From: Antedon bifida | Lineage: Eukaryota; Echinodermata; Crinoidea; Comatulida; Antedonidae | DNA length: 64,000 nt | Direction: 5' to 3' | NCBI GenBank assembly: GCA_963402885.1 | Contig: OY727096.1 | Location: 13,435,820 to 13,499,819 of the forward strand | In this document: positions 3,201 through 42,200 of the stretch, in pieces | How the letters are laid out: every line of letters starts with the position of its first letter | How positions within the stretch are numbered: the stretch's first letter is position 1 | The notes under the pieces: generated by a model | What the model saw: the letters and a program-made list of their open reading frames with translations, nothing else | What the model was told of the DNA's origin: nothing | The model's database searches: none | Program-made: the position numbers and the translations under genes

Positions 3201-6200
3201 TTTCAGTAATTACTATGACATCATAGTTATGTTCCTCAAAGAAATCGTACAGCTCACTAGTTTTATTCCGTATTGACCTGGCGTTCAATAGACATACTGA
3301 AATTAACGTGCCAGCCGGTTTAGACAGTGACGTAAGCTTATCCGTAGACAGGTCTACTTTTCTTATGGACACGCTTCCCTGCCTTTCGACCTCTGTGGGT
3401 TTTTCTTAAAATTCCAAGGCTTGTACAAAGTTGTTTTGTTGTATCGCCGATCGGAAAGCCCGTTGCCCCTGGATGGAGACTGAACAATGTTTCCACAGAG
3501 TATCTGATGGGTTGGCCTTCAGCAAGAACATTTGGATTTGCAGCAAAAGTAAGTAAAGTGGTCACAATGATCCACATGAACTTTATCAGATCCATTTCTA
3601 GATTATATGGCGTGATAGCATTTAAGACTATATAGCTGTATTGGGCAATTGAAAGTGATTTTTATTGCTCACACATGCAGCGTGCAGCTACTAACCTAGC
3701 GCACGACAATGCGCTAACTCAAAATCACTCGCTTATGCTTTGTCAAACCATATTATTAAAATAATTCCATCCTCTCATAGCTTATAGGATGAAACTGAAA
3801 AACACAACTTGTTATCGTTTTCTTGTTTGTCGAACCTGGTCGAACTTATTCAACGAGCATGTTTCAAAACATTAGCCACAGTAGACAAAAACACTTTACT
3901 GAGTGCGAAGCGTATATTCGATAGACAACGATTTCTTCATTGACGTTGACAAAGGAACTGATTTGTTATCCAGTTTAGTGTACTTCTTACAATATAAAGA
4001 CATGTTGACAATAATTCTTATATATAACTGTTGTCTGATGGCTTTAAGTTCAAACAACATGGAGATTTTATGTTCTTTTAAATCGATTCGATAGAAAAGA
4101 CTAATTCTTAGTCGAGCAGCCATGTTTACCTTGCCCGCTGATATTCATAGTTGGACTGTTTGTCCCTTCCATCGATCGGATATTGGGTTAGGTTGGTCTA
4201 GAGGAAATAACAACATATGTATACATACAGAGTGCCGCCAGATCTCTCTAATCACATCCAAAGCAAGATAAAGAGGGATCCAAGTGCGATAGGGGTATTA
4301 GCAAAGAAGATTCGCAACTAATATTAAAGAAAATAGGAACTTTCCTGCAAGTTGGTTCAGGTAAATATAATTAATTTTTTATATTTTTATATATTTTATG
4401 TCATTTAAACTGTTAAACAAGAACCTGTAAGTAAATGTTTTTACGCTTTTTATTTGTTCAACTTGCCATAAGATGCTGAAGTCATTGTTACCTGTAACCT
4501 CGAAAACTGAAACAAATAGCCCTAGTCTCGTCGATCAGATGAGCGCACGCAACTATAAGTTAAAAATACCGTACAGTATGACATTTATGAATACGCATTT
4601 ATTGGCGGAATGTGTTTCATGTTACTTTGTTTACTTTGTCTGAAATTCATGAAGCTTTAAACACTGCTCTTCTGAAGAGAAAGATGACATGCAATACGTA
4701 ATTACACAGTCAGTCCAAGACATCGAGACGCTGCACGACATGATATTTTAGGAGATTTGAAACGCAAAAATGTTAGTGGGAAACATAACAGGCTTGATGA
4801 AGCTAAGCGAGTTATAATGTTGAGATCAGATAGTAATTGCTTAATTTCATTATGGGTTAATCGTTGAAATTTGACCACAAATTTATTTTTAGTTTGTGTT
4901 TATATTAAAACGTAATTCCAAATTATTTAGGACCTTTCAGTTTGACTTTAAAGTTTCTTTCTCGTAGTAGCAGTTTGGCTTAAAGCGCTAAATAGAGAAC
5001 AATAGGTACATCTGATTGATATTGCCGACAGATAAAATCTTTGAATTTCTTACAACTTTGTGGCGCTGGCCCAATTTGTTTTTACTTGATTCATAAATAT
5101 TAATATCTAAACTTTAGAGGAGTAGTTTTGTTTAAAAAAATGTTGTCGCACATGAAAAAAAACGTGTTTGTTTTTACTCTACTTTTTAAGAGTTTTATAT
5201 ATGCTAATTAGTAATTAATTAGTAAAAATCTTTGGATTTATTGAATTTTTTTGGCTGCTAAAATTAATGTAAATTATACACCAAAAATTAACAAAATTGG
5301 CCGAAAATCATTATTTTTTCGATTTTCTCGAAAACTAAGCAATATTTTACCAAACAAACTACACCTAATAGTTTTCCTTACATTAAGGTCTACCAATGTA
5401 CAAAATATGAGCCAATTCGAAATTTTGACCCTTGCCACTCTTAATTAATTATTTAAAATGTAACCATGCTTCACCCTTTATTAAGATATAGGTATAGTGC
5501 CAAAAGGAAAATGTCACTATAACATTACTTTTTACTTACATCCTCTTTGTATATCCATTCTTGATTTCCACGTTTACCGTGACATTTAAACAAAATGATT
5601 TCTTTATAATTAGTATCCTTTGATGAATCCAAACACAGGTCATCATGTTTTATTTCATTTGTCTTGCTAAGTGCAAATATCTACAAGAAAGAAATATTTA
5701 AACAATAACAAAAGAGACTGTAAAAATGACAATGGGATTATTTACTTTTTATGATGTCTGTTACTATATTACATGTAAATGCGAGAACATGATTGGTCGA
5801 AATGGCATCATGTGACTAGCTCTCCAAAAAAATATAATTCCCTAGGGAAGTTATATCTTTCTAACCTACCGGTCTTTGACGTAATTGGATTGTGTCCATA
5901 ATGATCGTGAGTAAATGCAGATTACAATCGATTACTTACGAATTGCAAAGGTAAATCCGGTCTAGTGATCGACATTAAAAATCAATGGAGAGAATTAGAC
6001 GAAGGGATTTATTACAAGATACTTTATTGTCAAAATTTTACAATTTTGAGATATGTTTTGTACCATAGTAGATCATTAAATAATACAAAGTATATAAATA
6101 AAAAATGAATACAAGTTACTATCTTTTAAAGTTTACAGTGTTGAAAATCTGAAACGGTTTGTCGAAATTTTTTTTTGTGTTAGTCTAGATATAGGTTGCT

Positions 6201-15200: not shown

Positions 15201-18200
15201 ACTCTGCCCAAGTCGAATTTGCCTGCTCTATGTTCAAAATTTTGTTTCTATGGAACGCCAAAAGAGCAACATTAATAAAGGGCTAAAATTATGTGGAATC
15301 CATCTATTAAACTCATTTTTTGGTGAAAATCATGTTCAATTTAATATATTTTGTCACTGTTAATACAAATAAAATGTTACTGTTGATACTTTACATGGTT
15401 TCGTTAACTTTAAGAATAAAATCGTCGAATCGAATCGAATTCATCGTATCCCCTTAGATCGCCCTTATGAAGTATCAGCATTTTTATTGACAAATTAAAC
15501 ATGCATTTCACCAATAAATGCATTAAATGTAGACGCATTCCATCAAGTTTTTAGCCCTATTGTTGCTCTTTTGGCGCTCCATAGAAATGAAAATATAAGT
15601 TGAGTATGCTAAAATGTGCAAGAAACACGTCTGTAAAATCACCAACTTTTATTTATAAATAATACCAAGTATTTATTTGTTACTTTTTATGTGAATCTCT
15701 TTCATAAAAGTACTTTTGAGGCCTAATTCTAAGGTGTTGGTATTCAGAATAAAGTTAGTTTAATTATTTTGGAGTCAAAATACAATGTAGGTGCCGAATG
15801 GAAACACCGCCTGAAACCAACACAATGGAGTAAATATATATCAACAAACAAACTGTCCAGTTTGTTTGTTGTGAAACAAAGGTATATATTTACTCAACAG
15901 GCGAAAATATTATGAGTTTATTTCTGTTTGTGATAAGTATTTAATTAAATTTATGGTAAAAAGCTAAATGAAACCTACTATGTTTAAAATTGTGTATAGA
16001 TAAACAATTATTGTTTTTAAGCTGTGGTATATCTTAGAATTTGTAATAGGTCTTGGGTCTTAGGTTTCGTGATCTTAGGTTTCGTGACACCCTAATTTTG
16101 AGTGGTACCTCACTCATCTATCCCCATTCTTAGGCCTTCCCTCGGGGGGTCTGGCGGGCCTATTGCAGCAGACAAAATGTCTGTCAGTGGTAATATTGGT
16201 ATAAGGATGCCAATGGGCATCCCATGGTGGTGAAATTAGGTGGTATCTCTATCATCTAAGTGATGCCGATTTTTTAGCAACTTTCGGGGTCCCCCGGTCT
16301 AGACGCAGCAGGGGGTACCTGGCAGACTCCCATTAACATTGACTTCAAGTGACCCCCAACACACTTAAATAGTCAGATGTTTGTACCTAGTTCATCTAAC
16401 CAAATTTCTCTGGGCTGCCGGTCAATATATACTACTATGTTTTTACCGATTTGGTATGGATGACGTGGGTTGAAATTAACGTGAAGGGGTAACTTTAAGG
16501 GATCTGACATGACCTTTCGGATCGATATTTTGTCAGTTTTTATTTTTTTCCACTATGTTTTGACAAAATTTAGATCATTGGTGAGATGGGGTGAAATAAA
16601 CCGTTTTTGGGGGGTTTTCGAGGGAGTCTGGAGACTAGGCTGACAAACTTTTTGTTATGTTTTTGGTAGTATTAACAACATTAAGTGGTCAAACCTTCTG
16701 GGTGGTATGGGGTGAAATCAGATGTTACAGGCTCTTGGCCTTACTTATAAGGTTGGCGGTTGACATGTGTTAAAAATAAATCTATTGACCAGCACCCGGT
16801 TTATTGTGTGTGGTAATTTGTTTTGTTATGTAAGGACTGTGACCACCATTATCAAATGTACCCAAGATTTGAATATTATAAATCCAGCCCTGTGTTGTAT
16901 GCATATTCATTCACCAGTGCAGACGCATTCAATTTCATTTCCCCCCTTTTTTAGTGTGCCAGTACAAATACAACAAGTACAAATATATAAGAAGAAAGAA
17001 AAATAACAAATATTAACATTCAAAATAAGATATGTTAAACGCACATATCCCCCAAGATGGGAACACTTACAAACTGTTCACAGATTGTACTGAACCGCCG
17101 ACACTTTCTATTGTCAGGATGATGGGAAAAATTTATACAGTACTTAAATAAAAATAAATAACATTCAAAAACAACAAGAATAAGTAATTACGCAAAAATA
17201 AAACCAACCTGTCTAAATAAATTCTTGTAAGAAGCGGTTCAAGCCAACCTTTAGTGCATTCACAATGTGCATCAAGAAATGTAATGACCTTGCCAGTAGC
17301 TACAGATGCCCCTCTAAGACGTGCTCTAATCAAACCACTTCTTGTTCCCATTCTCTCAACTCTTACTTCTACTGGAAGCCGTGCTATATATGCTTCTAAC
17401 TCCATGCCAAGGAAATCTGAGGTAAAAAAAAAACCAAAAACTACTAGAGATTTGCATTTTTTTTTTAAATTAAAAAACTCATTACATTTTTAAAGATTTC
17501 TGATACTATAATTAAAATAACAATATAAATCTCATAATAAAATCTGTCAATTTCAAATGTACTTAGTGCTATGCTTAATTTTTTTTAAAGCCAAATCAAT
17601 ACTTTTTAAAAGATCTCATATACTATTTAAATTGATGGAATATTTTATAACGCAATAATAACAAATTGACTGGAAAACATATACATATAGATTAATCAAT
17701 TTTTTAAATTAAAAATAAATAAGAAAAATTTTACAAAAAACGGCGCTCAACTATTTGACGTAGCAGTTTAATTGGTTATCCGCACTTGTTATTGTCAGGA
17801 TCTTTTTTCTTTCTATCTTATTAGTTATCAGCATTCAGCGGATAACTCTTTGTAATCGTCCTGTTTCTTTTTTTTTTCTTTATATTATTCTTTCTTTCTC
17901 CTCCATTTTTGTGTCTTGTGTATCTCAAAAACGAGTAAACATAACATTTCATCTTTGTCATTATATGAACATTTACGTGAAGTTGTGCACTTCCTATTTT
18001 TTAATGACTTACACAAGATTTTATGAATTTCAATGATTGAACATAGGATAAAAACTAAAAGTGATTTTTAATTGACACCTAATTAATTCTTATCAAGGGT
18101 CAACTTTTTGTGCACTAAAAATGGCATGTTTTACAAGAAGTTACGCGCGCACACGCATTTCAAATTTCAAAATGCGCAAAATTAATTTCTAATCAACTTT

Positions 18201-21200: not shown

Positions 21201-24200
21201 GTCGCACAGCGTAAGTTATGCGCGATTTTATGGTTATATAATTATATATATCCTGAACAAAAATGTATTTTTCAATGAAACATTTTGAAAGCTTATTTAA
21301 TAATATGGAGACAAGCTTTACATGATAAAAATGGCATGCTACGCAAAAAATTATGCGAGTATGCGTATTTAAACTTTTAAAATGCGCAAAATTAATTTCT
21401 AATCAATTTCGCGTACATTTCAGGCCATTTTGAGCATTTTAATTTGTGGTTTGTTGTTGTTTTGTGACATTAGTCTGCGATGGTATATACAGTAGTAGTA
21501 TTTATACAGTATGTTATTAAAACAATATTATGTTACATAACTATATTACATAAAACCTGTTCTTACGTTATTATTACATCTAATATCAACATTATTTACT
21601 AGTATGTGTTTAGCATTTTATTAATGTTATTAAAACGCTATTGTGTTACATTACTATATAAAAATTATCAAACGTTTTTAGAATGCTTTTTTTTACAAAA
21701 ACATTTTGTGAACACCAAATTATAACTTTCACGAATATTGTCAAAACGTTTCCTGAGATACCATTAATTCACAGGACTTCCATTTACTTTGATTGTCAAG
21801 GCCGCTTTTCATATTATGCATATCAAAACAGTATTTAGGATTGAATACACAATAAACAAATAAATGTATGCATCACTATTCTATCCCTATTGAAGCTAAT
21901 CCAGGGGCGGATTGCAATAAAGGTCTTAACCGCGGTCTTAGACTTAAGCCCAAGATGAAACCCTTAGCAACGATGGTCTTAGATTTAAGACCATTGCAAT
22001 AAGAAGTCTTAGCCTTAAATGTCAGCGCCGTGGTCTTAGATTCTAAGCCTCCTCCAGGCAGGCTTACGCTAACCGCGCGACGCGAGCGCTCCTAGGCTAG
22101 CTAGTAATTTCATGGCGAAATTAACTTCTTTAAATACTGCTGTGAATTGATTTTATGATACTAGTGTAGAAAAGGGGTATTGAGCTATAAGACGTGTATT
22201 ATTATTTTTATCTACCAATTGTTTCAATAGATAAAATCTATATAGGCCCACACCTACCTGACGATCAATTACTATTAGCGGTCCACAACCGCACCAACAA
22301 TTAGCTGTACGCATATTGTCCATACGCGGCCTAGCGATACACTATTTTGACCAAGAAAAAGACTGCATATAGTAGCATATTTAAAATTTATTTTTTTGAA
22401 ATATTTGTTTGTAAACTTTAAGAATGTATTAACCAATATTTACTATCAAATTACATACAATTTTGTTGCCAATATTTTTAATTATTTGCTAAAATCTCCT
22501 AGTATTTACGTAATCGTAACGCTATTGAATAGGCAGTGTGTCCATTCATGCATTAAAATGGCCGCAATATGTCCTACTGAGGAGCTTGTCGCTACTCCTT
22601 ATTGTTAAATAACTCTATTTGCACTTGTTGGTATAGCGCCCTCATTTGTCGGTAACTATAGGCTGGTTTGATTGTTTGAAATTCTTTCCTAATAAAGTCT
22701 CAGTTAAGACCGCTATATTGCAATCGACTTTGCTGAGAGGCTTAACTAAGACTTTCACGAGGGGCTTAGGGCTTAGATCTAAGCCTAAGACAAAGTCTTT
22801 ATATTGCAATCCGCCCCAGGTGCAACAACCTGCTGCTAGTAGTATGTAGGTACAAAACAATAAGAAATCATTGCATCGCATTGCACAAAAATATCAACAT
22901 AAAACAGTAGATTTCAGGAAGGAAAAGGTAAATTGTTTAAAATTACACAAAATAGAAAATTAAATTGAAAAATTGAATTAAAGTTCAAATGAAGCATGTA
23001 TTTCTTAGCTGATGATGAGATTTAGCTTACTAAATATATACATATTTACAGGAGGATAGGGGCTATTTTTCCCTGAATACCAGAATAGAAACCTATTATC
23101 TTATTTTCAACAGAACTCATTTTTGTGAGAAAAAATACTGAGACAGGATGTTCTATATCATCATCATCAGCCGTTGTCAGTCCACTGCTGGACGAAAGCC
23201 ACAGCATGTTTCTGCCACAGTGCACGATCTCTAGCTGCTCCCTGCCACTGCACTGTACCCCAATACTTGTCTAGTTCATCTCGCCATCGTACTCTTTGTC
23301 TTCCTCTATTTCTACTCCCATCCATCGGTCTCCATGATGTCATTAGCGAAGTCCATCTATTGTCTCTTCTCCTACTGATATGTCCAGCCCACTTCCACTT
23401 ACTTAATTTGATAGTTCTTATAATGTCTTGAACTTGTGTTTGTTTTCTCACCCATTCATTTGTTTTTCTGTCTTTATATGTGATTCCGAGCATATTTCTT
23501 TCCATGTTCTATATAGCTGATTTTGATTATATCAATTCTTTTTGGTATGAGAAATAATGTGTTTCCTGCTGAAATAACATTTCCAGATCATGTGACTGTA
23601 GATATGTCTTTCAGTAAATTCCTTGAATGTTCTTTAACATTAACTTCTGATAAATCATATCACATGGCATACGTTTGACTAAAAATGACAACATTGAAAT
23701 TGCTTCAAGTGATTGTGTGACAAACGGTGACACAATAAAGTATGCAGGTGGATTATGTTTATGTTACTCAAAATGTTTCAAAAACACAAACATTGGTAAT
23801 AGTAGAGCTTGGTGAAAATGATCTAGGAACATACCAATGTACTTTTATTTTTTAAATGTATTGTCCTCCCCAAAACATAAAAAAAATGAAGATTAATAAA
23901 ATAAGAATTTGAATATGCCATTGTGTAGTCTTGCATCACTTCCGTAAAAAATACATAATGTTTTCGCTTATAAAATAACAAAATAAACTGTTAATTTCAA
24001 CAAAAAACTCATTGGCTGGCAGCCAATTGGACTATTGTTATTTTAAATTACAGTTTTTCAGGTAAAAGTAATTTTTTTTTCGATCCAATTTTTGGTCAAC
24101 GTGAATATTCTATTATGTGACATTAAAATTTAATTATTTTTTCAGAGGGACAATACATTTTAAATGGCCAAGAAACTAATGTCAAAGCCTCTACAAGAAC

Positions 24201-27200
24201 TGTACATTACAAGTATGTTCCCACACCAGTGTGTTCTAACCAGTGATTTGTAATAGCCGAACGCTGGATAGCAATCTATAGTGTTATAGCAGTTCAAGAA
24301 GTGATTCTCCATGGAGAGGGAACCAACAAGATGGTGGCTGCAATCGCCCAATCAGATATGCCCTACGCAGTACGCACTACTACGCCTGTGTTGAGCCTAT
24401 CTGCGTGAGAACGATACGCAACGCAGCGCATTAAGCGTATAAACGCAAACGCATTCTATATGATCCTCGTATACAAAAAATGCTAGATTACCAAGAAATT
24501 ATTAATTCTATTGCGGTTAACAATAATTATTTTATTTTATAAAAACTTCACTGTGCTTTGACAAGAATATGTGTTGTAATTTATGTGGTCTTAATGTATT
24601 ATATTAGATTATTATTTTTTATATTAAATAATGTTTTTGAACACATTTACGGCCGCCATCTTGTTGGTTCCCCTCCTGTTGGGAATCACTTTTCAGTCTG
24701 GGGTACACCCTCTAGTGTTCTTATTACATCTCTCGGTTCTAACCCAGAGAAAACGATTGTGCTGCCTGATGACATAATAACATTGCGATGTGATTCAGAC
24801 CCTGCAGATCCGCAAATAGAAATGATGTGGTCAATAGATGGAAATACCATTTCAACTAACAGTCAAAACGCAAACAATCCTTTAAGCCTGAACTATGTAC
24901 TGACAGTTCCTAATACAGAAGGTGTTATTTCTTATATATGTCAGACTACATTGGATAATGTTCAGATAAATGATAAATTCTGGAGCAATTTTTTAAACTT
25001 TTAGCTTTTTCGTTATAAATAAAAATCACAATTTATCATTGTTTCTGTAATTAGTTTGTATTAAATATTTTCTAAAGGCCCTGTCACTTCTTGATGATTT
25101 AGACAGCGAGTCATGAACGTTTCAAATTTTCTCTAAAACACTGGAATTTTCAATTTTTTTACATTTACATGACGTATTCATAACGAGTTGGATGTGTACA
25201 TAACGTACAAGGAACGTGTACATAACATTGTGATACCTTTGGTTAATGTAGACCAACATATTAACAACGTTTGCAAGTTATGCCGAACGATAGAGTTACT
25301 TATGCATAACGAGCGTCAGTGTGTTACTTCTGATCGAGTACCGTATCGTGGTGCCATATAAACGATTTTTTTTAAATAATAATTATTTAAACGCTGACCA
25401 TACGGTATCTATACTACGTTAGATGTAATATAAACAAATAAAAAATGTTTCAATTCATTCGGTGAAATATGAAATTATATTAGAATTTCATCTTTCACCT
25501 CATGAAATTATTTGTACCATCGCACTCATAAACATTCATTATTGGCATACTACTATTATACTAATACTTAGGGCATATTCATTGTAATATAATATGATTC
25601 AAATAAACCAAGCATGGTAAAACAAGTTTCAGTTATAATTTATTTTTAATATTTATAATGTAACTAGCAATTATACCCGTTCCAGGGCGGGTTTCAAATG
25701 TAGCTTAAAACCTTCCCTAAACTCACCAACCTCTAACCCCCATCCCGTTTTAATCACTCCTAGCACTTGAGTGATTAAAAAAAATCCTTCCCAGTATTCC
25801 GGTTCGTCGGTTATGTTGATATTCCATTACTCCAGACTCACAACCCCTCAGTGACAGTTTTAGAATGTAGTTTAAAACATTTCCAGTACAATTCCAGTTA
25901 TTTTGAAATACTCAATTACTTACCTTGAACCTAAAATACAGTATGTCTAATTGCATCCGGGACATCATTGTGTTTTGGGTTTTTGGGTTTGCGGTTGTTT
26001 GCACAAATGTGACTTTTTGCACATTTCACGGCTCAACAAGGGTACTAATTTTTCATTAATTTGTTTTAAAAAATAATGTAATCTCAAAATACTCTTTATT
26101 TAGCTGTAGCATATCAGCTAGCAATGACATTCAAACTAAGAATTGCCTTCAAATAAAGACCATTTGCATGCCATATGTCAGTGATTTTGTTTGGTTTGAT
26201 AATACTATAGTTTTAGATCTTCAAAAAGCAATTTCAAGTACATATTGTTTATAGTTCCTGCAAAGGATTAAAAAAAACTTTTCAACTGTACAACAAAAAG
26301 AAAAGTACTAAGCGTAAAAGCAACAGTCATCTGATTACGACTATGAATAGGGGAGTCTATAGCCTAGGTAAACATAATCAGCAGAATAATAGACTATGCA
26401 TGATTAAATACTACCTCTATTGAAGCCCACTCAGGTATAACAAACTTGGTACTAGTGTGTAGGTGATACAGACAATTCAAACATGACACAAGAATTTTCT
26501 CGAATTGTATAAAAAATAACACAAAATATTTCCAGAAATAAGGTAAGCTGTTTTGAATTGTAGAAAATTGAACCATACAATATATATTTTTGTATCATGT
26601 CACAGTATAGTTTCCAACTATTCTACTCTTTGTACACATTATTCCTTGTAACTACCTTACTGTACATACCATCCTAGAAAATTATTTCTTCTGTTTAATT
26701 TCAACATAGGTGCACACTCAGAGTTAGTTTTTTCTTGCATTAAAATTGTACTTAAAAATTCTGTATCATAAACCAAATTTCGCTACAGTTTAATCTGATA
26801 CAAACTCTAACTCTACTATTACTTTTGTTTTTCAGCAGAAAATGTATAAAGTGGATGTTTTTGTGAAAAATACAAACAGGATGAGTTCATCATGGCTATT
26901 CTTATTTGTTATTTTTGGTATGGGAAACAATGTGTTTCCTGCTGAAATAACATTTCCAGATCATGTGACTGTAGATATGTCTTTGAATGGATTCCTTGAA
27001 TGTTCGTTAACATTAACTTCTGATGAATCTATTAATCCACATGGCATACTTTGGACTAAAAATGACAATATTGAAATTGCTTTAAGTGATTCTGTGACAA
27101 ACGGTGACACCATAAAGTATGCACTAGGTGGATTATCTGTTACTCAAAATGTTTCAATAACACAAACATTGCTAATAGTAGAGGTGGGTGAAAATGATCT

Positions 27201-30200
27201 AGGAACGTACCAATGTACTTTTATTTTAAATGGTCAAGAGACTAATGTCAAAGCCTCTACAAGACTGTACATTACGAATTATGTTCCCACACCAATGTGT
27301 TATACACCAGAGAAAACGATTGTGCTGCCTGATGACATAATAACATTGCGATGTGATTCAGACCCTGCAGATCCGCTAATAGAAATGATGTGGTCAATAG
27401 ATGGAAATACCATTTCAACTAACAGTCAAAATGCACACAATCCTTTAAACCTGAACTATGTACTGACAGTTCCTAATACAGAAGGTGTTATTTCTTATAT
27501 ATGTCAGACTTCAAATACATTAGATAATGTTCAGGCTTGTATGATAAACTTACTTGTTGAAATTCCTTTAAATCTTTTGATAATGCAAACACCTGAAATA
27601 GCAGTTATAGGCCAAGATGTAACATTTACTTGCCTTGTGTCAAGTGGCACTGTTACATCGTATGCATGGACATTTCAAGATGCAGGAATCAGTTATAATA
27701 TTGATGGTAGTGCTTTGACGATTCACAATGTTCAGGCTAGCTACGATGGTTTGAACTTAATTTGTACAGTGGCCACAAGTACTCAAGAAGAAAGAAAATC
27801 AATTACACTAACAGTATCAACTCCAATTACAACTTTAGCACAGACTACACCTACAAGCTTACCCACAACGGAAGCTCGAAGGCAAATATCGAAGTTAGCA
27901 ACACAAGCTATTAGAACAACTGAAATAATGCCTAAAATCACCAGTGTAGCATGGAATGAAATCACATCAAATCCAGCTATGTCTACTGCCAAATCAGAAA
28001 AACAAGAATCTACATCAGTAGATACAATGGTTATCATAATTGCTGCAGTTATTGGTTCATTCTTTCTACTGCTTATCATCTGTATTTTAATAATTTGCTT
28101 ACGAACAGGCCCTCAAAAACGGCCATCTGAACAAAATCTAAGTGCACGCATGGAATATTACAAGAACGTTAGTGTAGAGAATGAAGTAAAAGGTGACATG
28201 GTTGTAAATCATCTTGATATTAATTTTTTACCAAACAATTTTGATATCTCTGTACTTCAAACTGAAAATGATATATATTATAAAGATGACGGATGGGAAC
28301 CTCCACCTTCAACTCAGACCACCACATTGTAGTTGAAACATACTGTAAAGCTAACAAACAATTATGGAGACAATCAATGTAAAAAAGACAACAAAAAAAA
28401 CCAGTGAAATGCATTTACAGTAGACAAGCACTCATCAGTAAATTATTTGTAATTTTGGAAATGTGAATTAGGATAGTGCTTTTACAGTTTATTGTTAGTT
28501 ATTGTTATCCACCAAAGCTGATTTGCATTCATATTGTATTCGTCCTCTAATGTTTAGTTTATTTGGCAGTTTGGGTATAGTGGGGAAGTTGGAATATCAT
28601 CAGAAACTTTTTGTAAATGTATAATAGTTGTTTCAAACTATGGTTTTCTGGTGTCTTTTTGATAATTGACTTGGAACTGGATAACAATTATTTCATTACA
28701 TACAGAATATATAGAAATAACAGTATATAATCAAGAGAAGTGTATATTTGTTTAAATCAAGTTAGAATTGATGGGAAGGAGTAAATCACTAGAATGAATA
28801 AAACATTTAAATTTTTTAAGAATATCAAAAGGATTTCTTTCAATTATATACAACTACTGGCATGGAATGAATAATAAACAGATGTTATCTATATTAACTA
28901 TTAACTATATGTACGTATCCCTCTGAAACTGCTGAATGGTAGTAAATGCTGACATTTGGCAGTCGTAATTCCGGTGGTATCCGGGGAGAGGCATATCTGT
29001 CCTTTTCAATCTCAAGTGTGTGGGCGCTAATTCATAATTTACTTACAAACGATATTGATGATCGTTTAAATGGTAAAAGATATGGCTCAATTTCACATTT
29101 TTATATATATAAACACATTAAGCCTAATGTGTTTACATATATAATATATATTATAAATCCAACGGCAAATTACCGAAAAAATGACAATGCTGTGGGTATC
29201 AGTGGCTGGATCTCAATGGAGATACAAAAAAAAAGCGAAAAGCTAAATCAAAACGATAAAGTAAAACAGCCAGAAAAGTTACACTAGCCCTTTATCAGTG
29301 CAAGTGAAGGAATTTGGATAACGTCATAGTATAAAAACTGGCAAGTGCTGCCTGGGTGGACAGGAATACAACAAAAGGTGACAGGGTGGAGTCAGAATAA
29401 GAGTAGAAAACAAAGAAGGTAGATGGTAGAGATATAAAGAATTTTGGAATGAAACTGAAAAACAGCTTAAATGGTGGTTAATATTGAAACTTAAATTTTG
29501 GTAGTCAATGGAATAATTTTACTGATCTGGGAGTATGTTCCTAACGTTAAGTCCAAAATGTTTTGTGGTTTTAAGTTGTAATTCCCAGTGGTTTTCTTTG
29601 TCTTTGCGAGTTTTGTCACTCCATACTCAGTATACTGTATATACTATTATAGACAGAATTCAGCACTATAACAACATGTCATATTCTTCATTTCAGGTCA
29701 TAATGCCATAATCTTTTTCTGTGTGCAATATTCCAACGTATGCCGTGCATGTGGCGTTTGTCGTGCGGATAACCCGAACTTGTCTAAGTGACGAGTTCAA
29801 ATCTAGTGTTTTATTTATTTTATTCCTGTCCACTCAGGCAGCACTTGCCTGACTATATCTATCTATCTTTGTCCAAGTGCCTTCACTTGCACTGATGAAG
29901 GGCTAATGTTGCCCGAAAGCTCTGCTAACTTTTCTGGCTGTTTTACTTTATCGTTTTGAATTAGCTTTTCGCTTTTTTTGTATCTCCATTGAGATCCAGC
30001 CACTGAAAAAAATTTTACATTTATATTTTTTACGATTTATTTAAAAAGTGTGTTTACTAGAAATGCTAGCGCTTTGTGAGACTTGTCTATTGAGACCCAC
30101 GAAGTAGCTAGAAGTAGTATAACGTATGTGATGACGCGATGGAATAACTCAACCATATCGCACTCAAAACGTTCCTCTGTGGTGTGACAAGCGATGGGTT

Positions 30201-33200
30201 GTGTGTGTGTGTGTGTGTTGATTCTGCAGCCTATTGATATACCTATATTAACCCTAACCACACTTACTAGCTAGGTATCGAGTCAGTCTGATAATTGTGG
30301 CAGTCGTTTATGAATGCCTAAATTTATGAACTTTTATATTAATTTACTCACCATCGTCGTTGAGTACAAGTTTTAGTCCGGTGAATTACTATAACATCAT
30401 CGTCTTTATTCACCAAAAATCAATGCGATCGTATTAAAACAGTTTTTAGTTCTTCTATATGGTTGAATGATTCTAGAGCATCATACGTCATGTTTCTAGC
30501 TACTCTTTGAGTAAATAGACAAGTCTGGCAAATTGCGAACATTTCTAGTAAACATACTTTTTAAATAAATCATAAAAAATATAATGTTGAATTTTTTTCT
30601 TGTTTCTTTTGCCTATCTGGATATTGAAGTGTTTCTTCAAAATACCAGACTAAACATTTTGGCAAATTTAAGCCTAATACAGGTAAAATTAGCAATTGAA
30701 GTGACGGTAACTATCTCTTGTATGTTAACAACAGTGAAAACCCATTAAGTACATTTACTAGGTCATTTTTTTGCGGCTATAGCTCACGTTTTTGGTCACG
30801 ATCCAACCAGTGAATTAGGCCTACTGATGTGTACATGGTTACATACAAAATAAACTTTATTAGGCCTACTCATACAACATCAAATAAAAAGTTATGAAAT
30901 CAAATGATTATCGTAGAGTAAATAATAGGCATCATGCAGTAAAACTAAGTCTTATTTGAGGCTTAGGGAATGCAGTTGAAAGAGTGTGAGTTATAACCAT
31001 ATATGGCACTAAGTCAGGATTGAACTCCGGACATTGGGATTGGAAGGCAAACACCAACCTCCATGATACAGCTCTACTCCAATGGCTGTCAATGGTGAAA
31101 ACATAACGGCACACAACATAACATAAACATGCTTCGTAGTTTCTTTTCTCCAACTACAATTTGGTTTTTAATTACTCCTGTAAACAGCTTGATTACATCA
31201 TTTTACCGACAAACGAAACTTTATAGTTTTTATGCGTTTTCATAAATAAGTGAATAAAACATACATATTTGTGTTTTCATTGACGAGGTTATAATAGTAA
31301 CTTCAGTAACTATTACATCACTACTGATAAATCCCGACAGCCCGCCAGGATCCCAAAAAAATCATGATTATCCCCAAATTACGATCCTGATCCTGGTAAT
31401 AAATCCCATCGGGATGACCAAACCCTAACGAGATTCGGCGATTCGGATGGGATCCTGTTTTTATGGGGAAGCACATTTGTCACAGCATCTTACGGCTACG
31501 GCTGTATGGTGAGTGCGTGTGGCAAAATGGTAAATATTGCAATTGTTCTGAAACCATATGTACATCCTAAATATGGTTCACGGTAAAGTGTAGGCTTAAC
31601 TGAGACTTTCTCATGGTCTTAGATTAAAGCTTAAGCCTAACCCTAGGTTTTTATATTGCAATCTGCAATGTATAAATGTATAACCTTTTTAATCATATAA
31701 GGCTTGAAACTATTGATTTAAATGACGCATGTCTTCCATTCCATACAAAAAGATTCAGTGTAGTCGCCAAATACTGACCATGCATGGGACCATCAACTGT
31801 GGTCTGTCCAAGAAACTCGTGGTCAGATTTTTTTTTGGTGAAATACAAAAATCAATCATACATGTTCTTTATGAAGTTTTATTTTCAAGAACACACCTGT
31901 TTCTCAAGCATACCAGAGTGGGCCATATTTTTTAAAATTTGAAAGCAAAATATGGTAACATGGTATTCTGTGTGCTGTAGTAAACTACTTTGATCAATTA
32001 ATTTAATGTTTGTAAGTTATTTTGTCAATAAATAAATATTCTAAATATATGATGGTGTATGACTGTGTTTTATCAAGATGATATACAATTATGATGCTGT
32101 GTTCATAATACTTCATATGTCGAATAAAAAAATATTATTCAGGATTTTAAAAAATGTTTGATACACTTTAATCATTATAAAAAAATGATATGTATGGCAC
32201 TAGTTCACTGATTTTTACAGAAACAAAAGTATTTGATTTCCCGATTAGCACAGTGTAACCATAGTGTGGTAAAGTGCCTGTTTTACTTTTTATCAATAAT
32301 AATTCAAACATCAATAGGGCCTAAAATTAGGTAGCCCAGGACAGTTTTTACAAATTTTAGGTCAGTCGGGTTGGGCAACATATAAACAATTGTGTTTTCA
32401 GGCCTGATGGTTAAACAATTGTGTGAAAAAATTACAACTTTAAAGCTTCCTCTCAGCTGACAATTATTTCTATTTTCATATGAAGAATAACTATGATTTG
32501 ATTGTCTGATGGTTGGTACTCATGGGTGTTCATCCTAACTTCCTTAGTGTGCTGTAAATCTCATTGTATTAACAGTTATCAAAATCAAAGCCAGGAAGCT
32601 AGTGAAAGTTATCCAAACAATGACATCATCTTTTAGGAATTAGCACAGACTTTACATTACTGAGAAATAATCATTAACCAATTTGTACAACTTTAAAGCA
32701 CTGTTTGAAGTTGGTGAATAGTTTCATCAATATCACAAGTAAGTTTTATAATTAAATTCAGAGACAGAGGGAAACTTTCAAATAATTGCATAATAGGTTA
32801 CGGTTACTTCTACCTTTAGCTTTACTTCACTATAGTTGATATTGAGTAGAACTACTGAATTTGAAACAGTTGAAACAAATATAATATCTTTAAGTAATGT
32901 ATAATAATATAAAGTCTTTCACCAACAGTATATTATGTTGTAATTTGTTCTTTTTTAAAGATATGTGGCTGCAGAAAAAGTTTGATAAGGTTTGGATGTT
33001 AACTATTTCAATTTTGTATGTATTTGCGAATGTTAAATGTGCAGAGATAACTCATGGTATAGAAGATACTGAAATAACAGAGGACGAGACTACAAACTTT
33101 ATCTGCACTGTCAAACTGGAAGAAACTGAAAAACAATACCAACTAGCATGGGAGAGAGACAGCATATTTATTGCTCTTGGAAATGACTTATACTTTGAAA

Positions 33201-36200
33201 AGAAACGATATTCAATCAATGTAACCATTGTAGAAGATACACTGTATTATTATAAAACTAGCATTCTGAAAATTAGAAAAGCTAAACTAACTGATGCAGG
33301 CATATTGATGTGTTATTTACGTTCTAACGACCATCTATCTGTGGCAACATCTGCACACATTACAGTTGTTAAATCAATTCCCAGACCTCGCTGTAGCAAA
33401 ATACCAACAGAAGTGATAATTGGAGAAAATGTTACAATTGCATGTACAGCAAAGCAACTATCACATTCTATTGAGCTAAACTGGTGGTCACGGAAAGTGG
33501 AAGACAATGAATTGAGGTTAGTTGAAGGTAATCAGAAAGTGGTTGGAAGAAAGTTCACTTTGAATTACACATTTACAGTTCAAGCAGGTGATAAAGGACG
33601 GACATTCAAATGCAAGGCCACTCATGTTAACAAGAATAAGTCTGATTTTGTGTCTTGCACGTCTAGAGTCACAAAGACATTGACCTCATATTTGAATGTT
33701 AGTGTTCAACAACAGAATTCATTAAGTCCTGGTGATGTGGCATGTTTTGAGTGTCTTGTGAAAGAAAATCTAAAAGATGTAGAAATGAAATATACATGGT
33801 CCTCTTTGTTGGATAATCCACTACCACAGTTTCATGACTTTATCCAGTGCTTTGGCAATGTATCAACATTCAATGCTGGAGAGGCAGTTAATTGTACAGT
33901 AGAACATGGAGGTAGGAGTGGTACGGATTCTTCACAGCTTAGGATGAGTACAGAAACAATAGGAAATGTATTATTTACTACTTCTAGTCCTACGGATGAT
34001 ACACCAAATCCCATATTTGGAACTAACTCTGCTTTCCTTTATATTGTGATTGTTATGAGTCTTTTCCTTTTAATGGTATGTCTTGTAACAATTCTTCTCT
34101 TTTGTATAAAGAAACAGAGAAATATAAATAAAAATGAAAAAGATAATTGTATAAAACCAGACATTGAAGAAAAAAATAATACCAATAACTGTACAATTGA
34201 TTCAAAACCAGTAGACCTAGTAGAAACTAATGATGAAATTAACACTTGCAATGACCAATCAGATTACCAAAATCAACGAATTAGTCTTTATGACAATGTT
34301 CCCATCGAAGAAACTTCTGCTGAAATTTCCATTTCAACACGTCCAGATAAAATTCATACACTAAACTTTAAACATCGGGCATCCACTTTAGAACAAGATA
34401 CTATCAAGAATAGTGTTCATGAAGTGCAAACATCTTTGCAAATGACAGATCTGGAAAATATCAGGTATGGCGGCATAAATCGATCTCATACTCAAAAAGT
34501 CAAGCCTAGATTAACAATGAAGCCATTGTCTAAAGCACTATCTTTGGATCAAAGAAGAATGAAGAAAAACTTAGTTGAAATGAGAGCTTTAAATGAAGCA
34601 CACAATACCAGAGAAAATAAAGAAGCAAAGGAAACCACATATATAAATATTGATATAAAAAACAAACCAGAAACCCCAAGCCCTATCGTTACAATGAAAC
34701 CAGAATTGAAAACTAAATCAGCTACCCTGTCTACTCCATTAGAAGCAATTAGGACATTAAACATTGAGGGGTTGCAGTATGCTGACTTGGATTTACTGAA
34801 TTGTGGAAATAGTATAACACAACCAACTACAGAAATAACACAGTATGCAGAGATTAGAAGACTGTCAACTGATGCTAAATAAACAGATTTATTCTAAAAT
34901 AATAGTACAATAAACTTATGGCGTGTATAACCTAAACAATTAAAACTAAACAATATAGTTAGCATGTGCCATTTAAAAGTTTTATCACTAACACTAGTAA
35001 CAAACAGTGTGTTAATCAAAACCTGAGGCTTGAGCAGCCGCGTAACAAGGGGGTCTTGTCAGGGGGGGAAAACAGGGGCTGATCCTTCCAGACACCAAGT
35101 ACTTGAGCCACAGCCCCCCCATGGTGGGGGCTGTGGCGAAGCGAATTTTGGTAAATGACACCCCTAGATCGTCGGAAATGGTACTCTCGCACATAAAATT
35201 CATGATAAATGGCGCCTCCAACTAGGGCCTAGTAGCTAGTAGTTGGCCTGGAAATAACACTCCCATTTATTGCACAGCAATCAGCAAAATGATCGTACAT
35301 TTTCCACCGTTAAAAACACAGGTGACATAACATTTGAACACGTGAAAACCCAATCTAACATTGGATCCGCGCCTGGCAAAGGTAGTAATTTTTCCGGTTA
35401 GAAGACTGAAAGATTGAGTATTGGAGCGACAGCCAGCCATGAAAGTACGTTCGTTTTGCTGATCACTAGCGCGTTACATACGATTAGTAGGAGTGTATTT
35501 TTTTAAGGTGACCTCATGTCACACGCACAGCACAGCGTCACAATTGTGTATGAGATGCCGGCCCCCGCGCGTGTTCTATGGACCGGAACCGCGCTTGGTA
35601 AACATGTCTCTTCAACGTATATAAAAAAAAACACAAACAAATACGACATATTAACGCAATGTATAATATTAAGATTAGCCATATACTCGTGTGTTTGAAC
35701 TAACTAATAAACTATACAGTAGTCTACAAACATTATGGTGTTACATGTACTAGTAATTTTATTCTATGCGAAAAGAAAGTGAATGCCTGTCCGGGAGTGA
35801 ATGAAATGCTGTAATGCCCTTACAGGTAGGCAGGCCCGTAACCAGGGGGATCGGGGGATCGTACGATCCCCCGCTGAACAGCGAGTTCCGCTTGGCCTCC
35901 CACTTTTGTTTTTGCTGGGCATACATACAACACTACGATTGTTTACAAGTCAAGCCTTAATAAATTTAATTAATATAAATCGACATAAGAATATAAAGTA
36001 TATTTTAACTAAAATATAAAAACCTAACACTAAAATTTACAAGATAAATTCTATTTGATAACTGCTGAACATCGTGGTTCTGGAGCTAGCCGTACACAGA
36101 GCATAGTTGTTTGCTTGACATAAAAGGGTATTCCCCTACACAGGTCGCGGCGTGCGTGTGACGTAACGTGCCCAGCCAGCTTGATAGAGAAAGCATGCAA

Positions 36201-39200
36201 CTCACGCAAGTGCAAGATGCAATGGTTGAGTGAATTCAGGGATCATCTTAATTCCATGGTTTGTTACCTAAACACACCAAATGATGGTGAATATGCCTGT
36301 TAAAATCTCAATGATACGATCCCTTAATGTACCATGTTGTTGCTAGTATGCTTTAAAAGGAGGAGGGATCTAGCCTAGCTTCGGTCGGCAAGAGAATGCC
36401 GTCCACTGACAATTTAAGGTCGGCAATAAGGTCGGCAATTGAAATTCGTGGGCTGGAAATTACATCAAATTATATAGTTATATAGGAAATGCGATTTGCA
36501 GCCATACATAGGCCTATAGAGAAAAAAAATTTGAGGGTATGGTTCCACTAAACAACTTAACGATCCACCCCGCCGTCAAACCTGGTTACGGCCCTGGGTA
36601 GGCAATTCGGCAAATGCATGGCGGCTTAGATAAAAGACGCCAAAAACCACAGTCAACTGACCGCATGTTAATGTACTGATAAGCAGTGCGTCTTCCCACG
36701 AGTTGTCAGTCAGGATTTTGTGTATTTCATATCATCTTACTTGAATATCATACTGTACTGTGACTCATTTGACTCATTTGAAGCCATATCATTATATCGT
36801 ATATTTTATTCTTATCTTATATTTTTTTTTCTTTCTTCTATCCCTTCTTTGTATTTTATTTTATTTTATTTTTTTTACTTGTTACCCAGCCCGATCGAAC
36901 GCTTCTCAACCCGGTAAAATCCGCCAGGGGGGTATTCCGCCCCCCCTGCCCCCCGCCTGTTACGCCACTGCGCTTGAGTCTTCATTGACACATATTCTTA
37001 GAAAGTCCATCAGAGATTTTAATATGAACTCAATGCGAGTACCATGATCAAGTAATAATGGGTACAAAATTTGTGGACAATAATGGGATTATAATAAGAT
37101 AAGATAATAAGATTTATAGAGCGCATGGCGCTTATAGATAAAAAGAAACAGCAGAGACTTTTCTTTTTCAGATCAAAATTTAAGTTATCACACCTTTATT
37201 ACTCGTTCTGATTGTATACTTTTCAAATTTGAGTCTCAAATTGCATTAATAATGCCTTGTGACCAAATTTAGACTAAATTAGGTGGTGGGATTATATTCA
37301 GTCATGTTTTTATTTCATTTATTCCAGTCCACTCAGGCAACGCTTGTCTGCTTAATATATACTTTGTCCAAGAACTTTCAATTGCACTGATGAAGGGCTA
37401 GTGTTGCCTGAAAGCTCTGCTAATTTTTCTGGCTGTTTTACTATATCGTTTTGATTTAGCTTTTCGCTTATTTTATTTTGTATCTCCATCCAATACCTAC
37501 AGCATTGTCATTATCGTCAGTAATTTGCCTTTGGATTCATATATTATAAATTTATATAAATACATGCATACATTATTTTAGTACCATAATTGTAAAATCA
37601 AATATGCTTTAATAAAACATTAAAAAAAAATAAAACAATGTTTTATTTTTGTCATTTTAATGTCATTAATTAGAAAAAAGTTTGAGTGAGACGATACACA
37701 CAAGAATATAAACGGACACAGAAAATAAAAAGGAAAAACAAAACATTTCTGAAACTGAAACAGAGAATTAAAATAATTAAACTAAAAACTTTTACTTCTA
37801 TTATATAGCCTGTGCAAATATGTGAATGCGATTGGTTGAAACTGCATCACATGAATACCATCATGATCCTATTGTTACATATCCTCGCGGATTTTGATAT
37901 TGACTGTATAATTATTTTTAAATATTTTAACTATGAATACATAGCGCCCTCATGTTTTATGAGCCCCAGCGGCGTGGCGGGTCATGGGTCTATCCTTGAT
38001 TTTAAAATAGGGGATGGTTTAATAGGCACCAAATATCTGAGCCACAGGCCCCGTGGCAAAGCGATTTTGGGTAAATGACACTCTAGATGGTAGGAAATGT
38101 TACTCTCCGACATAAAATTCATGATAAAATGGCACCCCTCACTGCACTAGTCTAGTTGGCCCGGAGGCATTATTTTTTTTCCTATTAGGTTAAGGCAGAA
38201 AATATAGAAGGTTTGCATATATCATGAATGCATATCTGAGCTCATGACGTCATACTTGCAAAACACACTCTCTGATGCACAGATCGGAGTTACTTCCTGT
38301 ACTTTTTCTCTCGATGTTGTTAAAGACTAGACCTGCAATTTTTGACGTTTTGTAAAAATAATGCATATATATAACTTTAAACACATTAAACCAGGTCATC
38401 TCTTGTCTTAAATGTGCGTTTTATTAAGGTTAATTATGATAAAAAGAGAAAAACAATGCACTACCTAAGTAGCTCATGTCGAAAGTTCTCTCGTAGATGT
38501 TTATAGGCCTACTATAGCTTAGTTTTGTAGGCCTAGCTGGTAAAGAGCTAGCTAGCTATAGGCCTAGTCTGACGTTACATATAGCCTATAATATCTATAC
38601 AATAGTAGCACTAAGTCAGAATTCTATCTCTTCATAAACTGCAAGGCCGAAACTAACGCCGTTCGAACTGGCGCACCTTTTAATTTCCCTCTATCCATTA
38701 CTCTATATTAGAACGGCAAATTTGTATGAAATGTGTTTTTAGGACAATTTTTTTGCAACTTTCGTAAATTCTCGGCCATTTTCCTAGGTCACAATTAAGT
38801 CACTCGGGTAATTAGCAATATCGAGAAAAGAAAGCAGCACATATCAGCGCAGCTGCAGTTATAGTATAGCGGTAGTGCTGCCATGCGCCATTTCAAATGA
38901 AACGAGCGGTAAGTATAAAACTGTATTCTTGCTCATGTTTCTCGCACCTCCCAAACATAAGATTGAGCACCCTTTTAAACATTTTTCTAAACACCAAATG
39001 CAGTGATAACACTAGGCTAGGTTATGTTTCTTACTAATTAATATTCCAAAGCTGCTATGTAGGCAATTGTTAATTGAATGCGGGATGATTAGGCCCATGT
39101 GTGACTGGACGATTCGGCCCACTTTAAGGCTGATATAATGTCTGACTAAGAGAGGTTTCTCATTCCATTTATAAACCAGATTCAACTAAGTTGAATAACA

Positions 39201-42200
39201 CGGCGACCAAATTATTTTCAGAGACCAAGTTACCGGACAGTCATACATACTTTTTGCATTAAAATGTTCTAGATTTTTAGCCTCTTCTGTTTTGGACTTG
39301 CTTGTTTGTATTGTTGAGCAAAAAGAGCTAAGACTATGTTGAAAAGAAATATCTTTGTGGGAGGTCAAAATGCTATATTTGCCCTTCCTGACCCCCCTTC
39401 CATTCCCGCGCTGCTGATGAGCCCTCTATAGATGCGCTGAAAGACCGTTTGTGATTGGTCACTCACAGGAGTAACCTGGTACGTGCGACGCACTGAAAAT
39501 CTGGCGAATTGACTCGATAAAGAAGATAAATTATTAGTAATTATAGTTAGGCTAAGCTACAGTACCTAGTAATTTTATTACTGTAAAGTGTAGAATTATT
39601 GATGGAAATTCTTCTGGTAATGTACTAAGGAATCATTATAGTATTTATTTGCCATAATATGTTCATTTTTCGCAAGGTAAGGTGAACGCTATGCCTGGGC
39701 AGGCTTACTTACTTAGGCTAGCTCAATTAAAATTTATATCACAATCTTCATGAGCCTTTGTTGTAAAAATAAATTATAAAAGCATGATTGATTGATTGAT
39801 TGATTGATCATTTGGCACTTAAATAAACTCTCAATACAATGTATGTAGATGAAAACTAATACACAAAATTATTAATTGTATAAAAACAAACTATTCATAT
39901 CAATAATTATAGTTCCAATAAACAAATAGCAATGCATTGATACTGTAATCAATAACAATTCATCACCCAGACATAACACACAATCACTTGGGAAATATTG
40001 AAACCTGATTGATTTCCTTTACAAGTTTCCTGGATGGTCTAAATGGTACTAGTCATTCTGTGTATAATACATTGTGGTTATCTATATAGCAGAGTACTCA
40101 TATGTATTGAAAATCATTCATATATGTTTTCTGACAAGAATAATAACACAAGAGATCAAACTCTTTAAACAGACTTTTAATAATAGTGGGAAGATGATTC
40201 AACTAAAGTTCATTTGTACTTTCTTGTTTTTTTATCTGATGAATTATTTTCAAGTTGTAAAATGTGCAGTAATAACTAAAGATCCTGTAGATGTAGTAGC
40301 TTCTGCAGGTGAGGAGGCAACGTTCAGCTGTATAATCAAAATGAATAAAAATGTACCAAAAGAGCTTACATACACTGTTGGATGGTATTCAAGTGAACAG
40401 TACATTTCTAATGGCAATCGAATGGAAATAAACAATAACAGGTATACAGTTGACACAACATTCATATTTAAGCCTGGTGATGGTAAGTATATTACCACTA
40501 CTTTGAGGATTACTGATGTGAAGCATATTGATGCAGGAAGTTTTCTTTGTCTTGTTCTTCAGAAAACAGGAATTCAAAGCTCAGCAAAACTTACTGTCAA
40601 ACAAGTTCCTGAGCCAAGATGCATGGATTTGCCGAAAACGGTTACATTGACTGAAAGAATTGCACTTTCATGTATGATAGGAGCAGGCAATCATGATACA
40701 AGACTTACATGGTACAAATCTGACTCTGAAGGATTTATTAACTCTGCAACATTTCCTCAATCAACAGAAAAAAGTTACCTTAATATAACAATACTGGCAA
40801 GTAAAAATGTAAATAATTATTTTACATGTATAGCATCATCCTTAGAAGGTGGACAAGCAGAATCATGTTCAACAAATCTAATGAATATTGTTAAAGAAGA
40901 AACTTCATCATTACCGGTAGTTGTTTCTACACAAAATACAATGCCAATTATGTCTGGAAGTGAGGGATGTTTTCAATGCATAGTAACATGTGACACATGT
41001 GCTGGTCTAATAGAATTTACTTGGGAATACAATGGATCATCATCTTTCTTACACTCACAAAGAAGCAATACACGTTGCATTGCAAGCATTTCTTTGATAG
41101 ATAATGGGAAGGTGTTAAAATGTAGAGCAACATTTGATTCAAAGAGTGGTTCAGGAAAAATAGTAATTAAAGTAGTTGATGGATTAACAATGCCTATGAC
41201 TCAACCAGTTGCTACTCAAACATATTCAACTCATTCAACTAATCAACACCAAAATGAAGTTCAGAAAACTTTGAAAACAACTAGTTTTTATATACCCATA
41301 GCAATTGTTGTAGTAATCATAATCATTACAATTTGTGGCTTTTTTGGATTCTATTTATATCGTAAATATAAACAGACACCAAATATCACTGAAGATAAAC
41401 TGAATATGAAAAATATAATTACATCAGGATCACTTAATAATCAACAGCAATACACTCTTGATGTATTTCCTATGTATGCTAAAGTTCAGAAAGTTAACAA
41501 CCTATCAGAAAAACAAAATATTGATCAGAATAAATTACCTGAACATGAGAATCCAATATACGCGCCTGTAGAAATACACAAACAGACATCAGATAAGAGA
41601 GTTAACACAACAGTAGCGATTAAAACAGAAACCAGTGAAAACCAAGTTAATCACTGGAAAAGCCCAAGTGGAGATGTATATGCTTGTATACAAAAGAACA
41701 AGGCTTCTACATTACCTGCAAGTGTCAAAACTAAAAACGTGCCAGACACAAAACCTAAAAAACTGAAAAAAAATGTTAACCAGAGTAGAGAATCTGCAAT
41801 TGAAGGAAACGATGATATTTCAAGGAACATACCAGAAAATGAATCTAATAAGAAACTGCAAGAGAACATTTCTGACAAGCCTCGAGATAAGGATCATCCT
41901 CATGTTAAAAAAAAACATTCAAAAAAGTTAGCCATGTCAAAAGCTTCACCACATGGTTCAAGATCAAAGTGTGTTGACCCACAAGGATTAATGTATGCAG
42001 ACTTAGATTTTATGAACACAGCAAAAACTTCCATGTCCACTGAAATCAGTGGAGTTATTTATGCTGATATAACTAAACATTAAATGTTAAGTTATAAATA
42101 GTTTATTAATTAATTATAACAAAACCCCATATATAAAGGAAAAGTTAATGCATGGAGTAAGGTTAATGTGGCTACCATCAATTACCATCTATTATTATTC

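Follow-up and report, generated by a model that had tools for sequence, protein, structure and literature searches.

Inhibition through immunoreceptor tyrosine-based inhibitory motifs (ITIMs) is best known in vertebrate lymphoid and myeloid cells, and its invertebrate counterparts are the allorecognition loci of tunicates and cnidarians. Vertebrate paired receptors (SIGLEC, SIRP, LILR, KIR) are encoded by multi-exon genes and combine immunoglobulin (Ig) ectodomains with ITIM tails, alongside short-tailed relatives in which a membrane residue is charged. In the available parts of the published account, the FcoR genes of the Botryllus schlosseri fuhc locus are clustered type I Ig receptors of 520-610 aa that differ in signalling motif among members, and whose long tails can carry ITIMs, hemi-immunoreceptor tyrosine-based activation motifs (hemITAMs) or lone Yxx[ILV] cores (PMC12065747). 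The same source places ITIMs and immunoreceptor tyrosine-based activation motifs (ITAMs) on candidate allorecognition genes of Hydractinia, where Alr forms a large Ig superfamily (IgSF) family of 41 genes (PMC12065747; PMC11999971). Here, we describe genes B and C of the crinoid Antedon bifida, located in a stretch of 64,000 nucleotides (assembly GCA_963402885.1, contig OY727096.1, positions 13,435,820 to 13,499,819, forward strand; hereafter the window), which we are somewhat inclined to read as SHP2-recruiting, probably inhibitory receptors of a large single-exon Ig family, with a terminal tyrosine pair that would dock a SHP2-type phosphatase.

FcoR was the closest described system found, as far as the accessible text allows comparison. 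It and the Antedon family are both clustered sets of comparably sized type I Ig receptors with long motif-bearing tails; however, FcoR is described as having a sushi domain together with one V and two C2 Ig domains, and alternative splicing, whereas here there is one coding exon. No Pfam match to a sushi domain was obtained in nine of the 48 members (A, B and C at E up to 1, six more at E up to 0.01). Alr resembles the present family as a large invertebrate IgSF family with ITIM-type motifs, but an allorecognition role is known for Alr, and the two were compared by published description only. Since the nine scanned members have no sushi match and the genes are single-exon, we place the family outside both FcoR and Alr. 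The vertebrate paired receptors share Ig ectodomains, ITIM tails and short-tailed charged-helix relatives with it, and no specific orthology with SIGLEC, SIRP, LILR or KIR was found. Receptors of this kind are thus known from Botryllus and Hydractinia, and the way they are organised here seems to be a new variation on the ITIM-type Ig receptors of invertebrates. A literature search turned up no account of this single-exon family, although subscription papers were largely outside its reach and absence from print is not claimed.

Architecture and tail motifs of B and C

The features of both genes are as follows.

32963..34882, + strand: gene B, single coding open reading frame (ORF), 639 aa plus stop
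32963..33040, + strand: B probable signal peptide, ending ...NVKC (by eye and hydropathy)
33035..33370, + strand: B Ig domain 1, V-like (weak profile match; AlphaFold model)
33371..33676, + strand: B Ig domain 2, four-cysteine pattern C144, C161, C217, C232
33677..33967, + strand: B Ig domain 3 (recognised only via the family profile; model fails here)
34046..34108, + strand: B transmembrane helix, residues 362-382 (hydropathy)
34283..34300, + strand: B SLYDNV, ITIM pattern, also pYxNV
34460..34477, + strand: B IRYGGI, ITIM pattern
34634..34651, + strand: B TTYINI, immunoreceptor tyrosine-based switch motif (ITSM) pattern, also pYxN
34772..34789, + strand: B LQYADL, first tyrosine of the terminal pair, Y606
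34838..34855, + strand: B TQYAEI, second tyrosine of the terminal pair, Y628
40194..42083, + strand: gene C, single coding ORF, 629 aa plus stop
40194..40265, + strand: C probable signal peptide, ending ...VVKC (by eye and hydropathy)
40266..40601, + strand: C Ig domain 1 (profile match; low-confidence model)
40599..40886, + strand: C Ig domain 2, four-cysteine pattern
40899..41201, + strand: C Ig domain 3 (recognised only via the family profile)
41292..41354, + strand: C transmembrane helix, residues 367-387
41469..41486, + strand: C PMYAKV, Yxx[ILV] core
41553..41570, + strand: C PIYAPV, Yxx[ILV] core
41673..41690, + strand: C DVYACI, Yxx[ILV] core, non-strict ITIM
41988..42005, + strand: C LMYADL, first tyrosine of the terminal pair, Y601
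42054..42071, + strand: C VIYADI, second tyrosine of the terminal pair, Y623

By their predicted architecture, B and C are intact type I surface receptors with three Ig domains, one membrane helix and a long tail. The initial annotation had proposed this layout together with a signal peptide and a tyrosine-motif tail, and profiles and hydropathy bore it out, the signal peptides being probable. Extracellular Ig domains of the kind found in ITIM-bearing receptors are present in both genes, the third through the family profile only, as is a single membrane helix followed by a tail with [SIVL]xYxx[ILV]. The Ig fold itself was recovered in part: in the AlphaFold model of the B ectodomain (mean predicted local distance difference test score, pLDDT, 60.7) domain 1 was good, domain 2 fair and domain 3 failed, and the C ectodomain model was poor (mean pLDDT 54). 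The closest PDB sequence match of B was CD276, and the structural matches of C, which also include SIRP, CD22, Siglec-10 and LILRB chains, weigh little because that model is poor.

In the B tail, three strict ITIMs and two ITSMs make five matches against 0.43 expected (0/20000 shuffles), and a chance origin of these motifs was rejected. In the C tail, strict ITIMs number two (p 0.044) and Yxx[ILV] cores five (p 0.0037), and the case against chance there rests on conservation. ITAMs have the form Yxx[LI] x6-12 Yxx[LI]; core spacings of 59, 58, 46 and 22 residues in B, and of 28, 40, 105 and 22 in C, do not fit that reading. Tail peptides of B and C had no match in the PDB.

The conservation in question is that of the tail end, where two Yxx[LI] tyrosines stand exactly 22 residues apart in both B (606/628) and C (601/623). 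Tail similarity between B and C is 85 against 46.9 +/- 8.4 in shuffled tails (4/2000 reach it), and falls to chance level, 50 against 48.0 +/- 8.4, once the final ~40 residues are removed. Silent sites are saturated, with the same codon at 38 of 84 identical ectodomain residues (39.1 expected) and, near the tail end, at 4 of 11 identical residues (5.1 expected); therefore, the pair is probably old and preserved by selection on the protein. Far from motifs being lost from an otherwise kept tail, which the initial annotation held would refute its view, the opposite was seen between these paralogues, only the motif-bearing end being alignable.

Furthermore, the pair recurs in an unlinked member, D (C16:15809884-15811524, a 547-codon frame), whose tail end reads ALYADL...IMYAEI with Y520 and Y542 again 22 apart; among 48 complete members, a Yxx[ILV] pair at this distance is confined to B, C and D. 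C and D tails score 52 against 36.2 +/- 6.2 shuffled (45/2000). In a weakly supported tree of 35 of the 48 members, D lies apart from B and C, which are joined at 90/83 by long branches (deeper forks 65/24 and 87/77), so that the tree does not decide between an ancestral pair and one that moved.

A large single-exon family with variable heads

The window lies in a 315.6-Mb genome of 27 contigs, in which C had at least 31 matches and B at least 25, together on eight contigs, these counts being lower bounds because only the best candidates were scored. From the B and C matches and their neighbours, at least 48 distinct complete members were collected, each one uninterrupted frame, many in tandem arrays; a family of ITIM-type Ig receptors had been supposed, and it is bigger than supposed. 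Members were taken as open frames of at least 250 aa, a definition that multi-exon relatives would escape. Frames of at least 375 aa, free of internal stops, hold 30 of the 31 listed C matches and 24 of the 25 listed B matches. The set excludes duplicates, 10 ORFs that continue past the end of a retrieved stretch, and two matches whose frames are shorter than 250 aa (C10:30970253, C12:19264963). It is not uniform: of six further members scanned (Pfam E up to 0.01), the C1:30816491 gene had only a V-set under the cut-off, and in C12_2474726 no Ig domain was matched. No relatives in viral contigs were confirmed.

A strict [SIVL]xYxx[ILV] is present in 15/48 tails, in five of them as a sole match directly at the membrane, and two or more occur in three members (B, C and the C7:32.609 Mb gene, L043). 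The Yxx[ILV] core occurs in 36 members and is missing from twelve. Since members of one array share a tail, these counts depend on one another; across 27 non-redundant tails, 41 cores were counted against 22.3 expected (0/2000), and 27 against 18.2 (33/2000) when B, C and D were left out, strict ITIMs in the latter set not being significantly enriched (8 versus 4.4, 148/2000). A second tail type, [DE]VYFEPxDR...QVPxD-like, was seen by a loose pattern in 26/48 members, including the C7 arrays. Its YxxP suggests a Crk-type SH2 site, but enrichment of YxxP across the family was not found (12 versus 8.3 expected).

Three of the arrays, of 5, 5 and 11 copies (stretch ends cut one frame in the second and two in the third), lie on C7:

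18.47-18.52 Mb and 24.70-24.72 Mb: tandem arrays on C7 (stretches L012, L013, L016, L017, L018, L028)

Within them, amino-acid identity of the transmembrane (TM) helix plus tail is 0.98, 0.96 and 0.92, against 0.68, 0.61 and 0.61 for the ectodomain, where the N-terminal part is lowest. Median synonymous divergence (dS) is 0.06, 0.11 and 0.31 for TM plus tail and 0.78, 1.60 and 0.95 for the ectodomain, and DNA identity is 0.93-1.00 in the TM/tail core but drops to 0.48-0.77 in windows beyond the reading frame (5, 4 and 9 copies). From this contrast of uniform TM/tail DNA with diverged ectodomains and flanks, gene conversion of the 3' coding segment would be the simplest reading. Nonsynonymous divergence (dN) above dS was found in 0/10, 0/10 and 0/55 pairs over the ectodomain and in 0/10, 0/10 and 0/45 over TM plus tail. 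Per domain, in 8 chosen close pairs, it was seen in domains 1 (14 nonsynonymous, 2 synonymous) and 3 (2, 0) of C7_18517000/18519111 and in domain 2 (5, 0) of C7_18469740/18471698; these are small counts, and positive selection is not claimed.

The membrane-helix core carries a charged residue in only 2/48 members: a Lys in C10_30971621 (tail 27 aa) and an Arg towards the outer helix end in the C1:30816491 gene (tail 31 aa). No other tail among the 48 is as short, the third shortest measuring 45 aa; the association was noticed post hoc. The first has a close neighbour:

C10:30.967-30.973 Mb: C10 neighbours, C10_30967009 and C10_30971621 (L019:3010-4962 and L019:7622-8746)

Their ectodomains are 86% identical over 898 aligned bases, and in C10_30967009 the helix is uncharged and the tail, 280 aa long, holds three Yxx[ILV] cores, of which none is a strict ITIM. 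In vertebrates, a shared ectodomain with a short charged-helix form versus a long tail marks activating/inhibitory pairs. By analogy, the C10 neighbours might be such a pair, which is suggestive only, and the short tail of C10_30971621 could be a truncation. A third copy between the two has no open frame of 250 aa.

A probable inhibitory role and other readings

The explanation that we favour by a little supposes that the V-like and further Ig domains of B and C bind a ligand on an adjacent cell or particle, and that engagement would let a Src-family kinase phosphorylate the tail tyrosines. The terminal pair, YADL plus YA[DE]I, would then dock both SH2 domains of a SHP2-type phosphatase and open it, so that the receptor may dampen, or at least rewire, the kinase signalling of nearby receptors. 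Phosphatase docking through this pair is the most likely role in B, C and D. Indeed, in the available texts, doubly phosphorylated Y241 and Y263 of MPZL1 bind the tandem SH2 domains of SHP2 (PMC8024022, PMC5599542), the degree to which double phosphopeptides activate SHP-2 varies with the length of the linker (PMC7078208), and the ITIM of fly Draper-II is bound by Corkscrew (PMC9008705). CD22 pYENV is further reported to bind Grb2, with a preference for pYXNV (PMC5302901), and the membrane-proximal pYxN motifs of B (SLYDNV, TTYINI) might, in a CD22-like manner, add Grb2-type adaptors. Other tails, of the YFEP type in arrays or short with a charged helix, suggest that a single ectodomain family plausibly feeds several outputs. 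Calling the receptors inhibitory is a reasonable extension from the SHP2-type pair, and an immune or self-recognition role would rest on family behaviour only.

Several observations weigh against this explanation. SHP2 recruitment can also promote signalling, so that "inhibitory" does not follow from it, and ITIMs overlap with YxxPhi endocytic signals. The strict ITIM count of C reaches by itself only p 0.044, the second tyrosine of the B pair (TQYAEI) is an ITSM-type match, and the first of D (ALYADL) has Ala at -2 and is thus a non-strict ITIM. Similarity between B and D tails is weak (44 versus 34.4 +/- 5.8; 141/2000, or 7% of shuffles). Moreover, pYxN enrichment is marginal in B (3 of 6, p 0.016) and missing from C (0 of 8), and across the family it was not found (10 versus 7.8 expected).

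MPZL1 has one V-type Ig domain, whereas three domains and a family expansion are found here, but its ITIM-type pair has the 22-residue spacing of B, C and D. It is possible, though rather unlikely, that B and C are MPZL1-like adhesion receptors, whose pair recruits SHP2 to promote adhesion, migration or ERK signalling; many of the best sequence or fold matches are adhesion or guidance proteins (LRIG1, DSCAM, ROBO, Dpr/DIP, ICAM). However, the match lists do not discriminate, naming also CD276 and the chains given above, and the family size, the tandem arrays and the divergent N-terminal domains on near-uniform tails suit recognition receptors better. That the tyrosine motifs serve mainly as YxxPhi endocytic or sorting signals appears improbable: Yxx[ILV] cores fit YxxPhi as well and are enriched in the family tails, but the 22-residue spacing and the YA[DE][LI] context common to B, C and D would be left unexplained. 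As for decaying, retrogene-like single-exon copies, relic or silent, the lack of coding introns in the members read and a decayed copy, A', near the relative A speak for them; nevertheless, frames of 483-639 aa are intact (odds of random survival about 5e-17 to 2e-22), 48 members are complete, and protein features are retained despite saturated silent sites, which makes such an origin very hard to credit. These frames likewise make it less likely that B and C are retrogenes or pseudogenes.

Building on SHP2-type recruitment, we tentatively raise a broader proposal, itself rather doubtful, of a complete paired-receptor system outside vertebrates made from single-exon genes, in which a fast-diverging three-Ig recognition module, common to all, would be joined to interchangeable outputs: the SHP2-type pair tails of B, C and D, YFEP-type tails that gene conversion keeps uniform inside each array, and short charged-helix tails needing an activating adaptor. 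The arrays would then form a germline repertoire in which variable heads sit on constant tails. If true, this would suggest that balanced sets of activating and inhibitory Ig receptors arose, or persisted, more widely among animals. With one coding exon per gene, population and RNA data should readily yield polymorphism, copy number and expression.

Relatives and other features of the window

Two relatives accompany B and C in the window.

26881..28332, + strand: gene A, relative of 483 aa in one ORF, with three Ig domains and an ITIM-free tail of 78 aa
23536..24965, + strand: A', partial copy of A, decayed and truncated, carrying two inserts and frameshifts

A' is a relic, with 90-94% nucleotide identity to A across three matched pieces; its first insert (about 23859-24156) has short terminal inverted repeats and is small-DNA-transposon-like. 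Profiles of the three domains detected no further copy in the 64-kb window below E 0.04. A, B and C each have one coding ORF from the probable signal peptide through the stop, and the sequence directly upstream of the A and B starts is splice-acceptor-like by eye, so that a non-coding 5' exon is possible.

Elsewhere in the window, a glycosyltransferase family 2 exon lies at 17133-17489, - strand (Pfam E 1e-13; by eye a polypeptide N-acetylgalactosamine transferase), and an ORF of 813 aa at 964-3405, - strand, encodes a long interspersed nuclear element (LINE)-type endonuclease and reverse transcriptase. The palindrome TAGGCCTA is 30-fold enriched, with 28 occurrences on both strands (14 sites) against 0.93 expected under a dinucleotide model, and such enrichment of TAGGCCTA is typical of echinoderm genomes.

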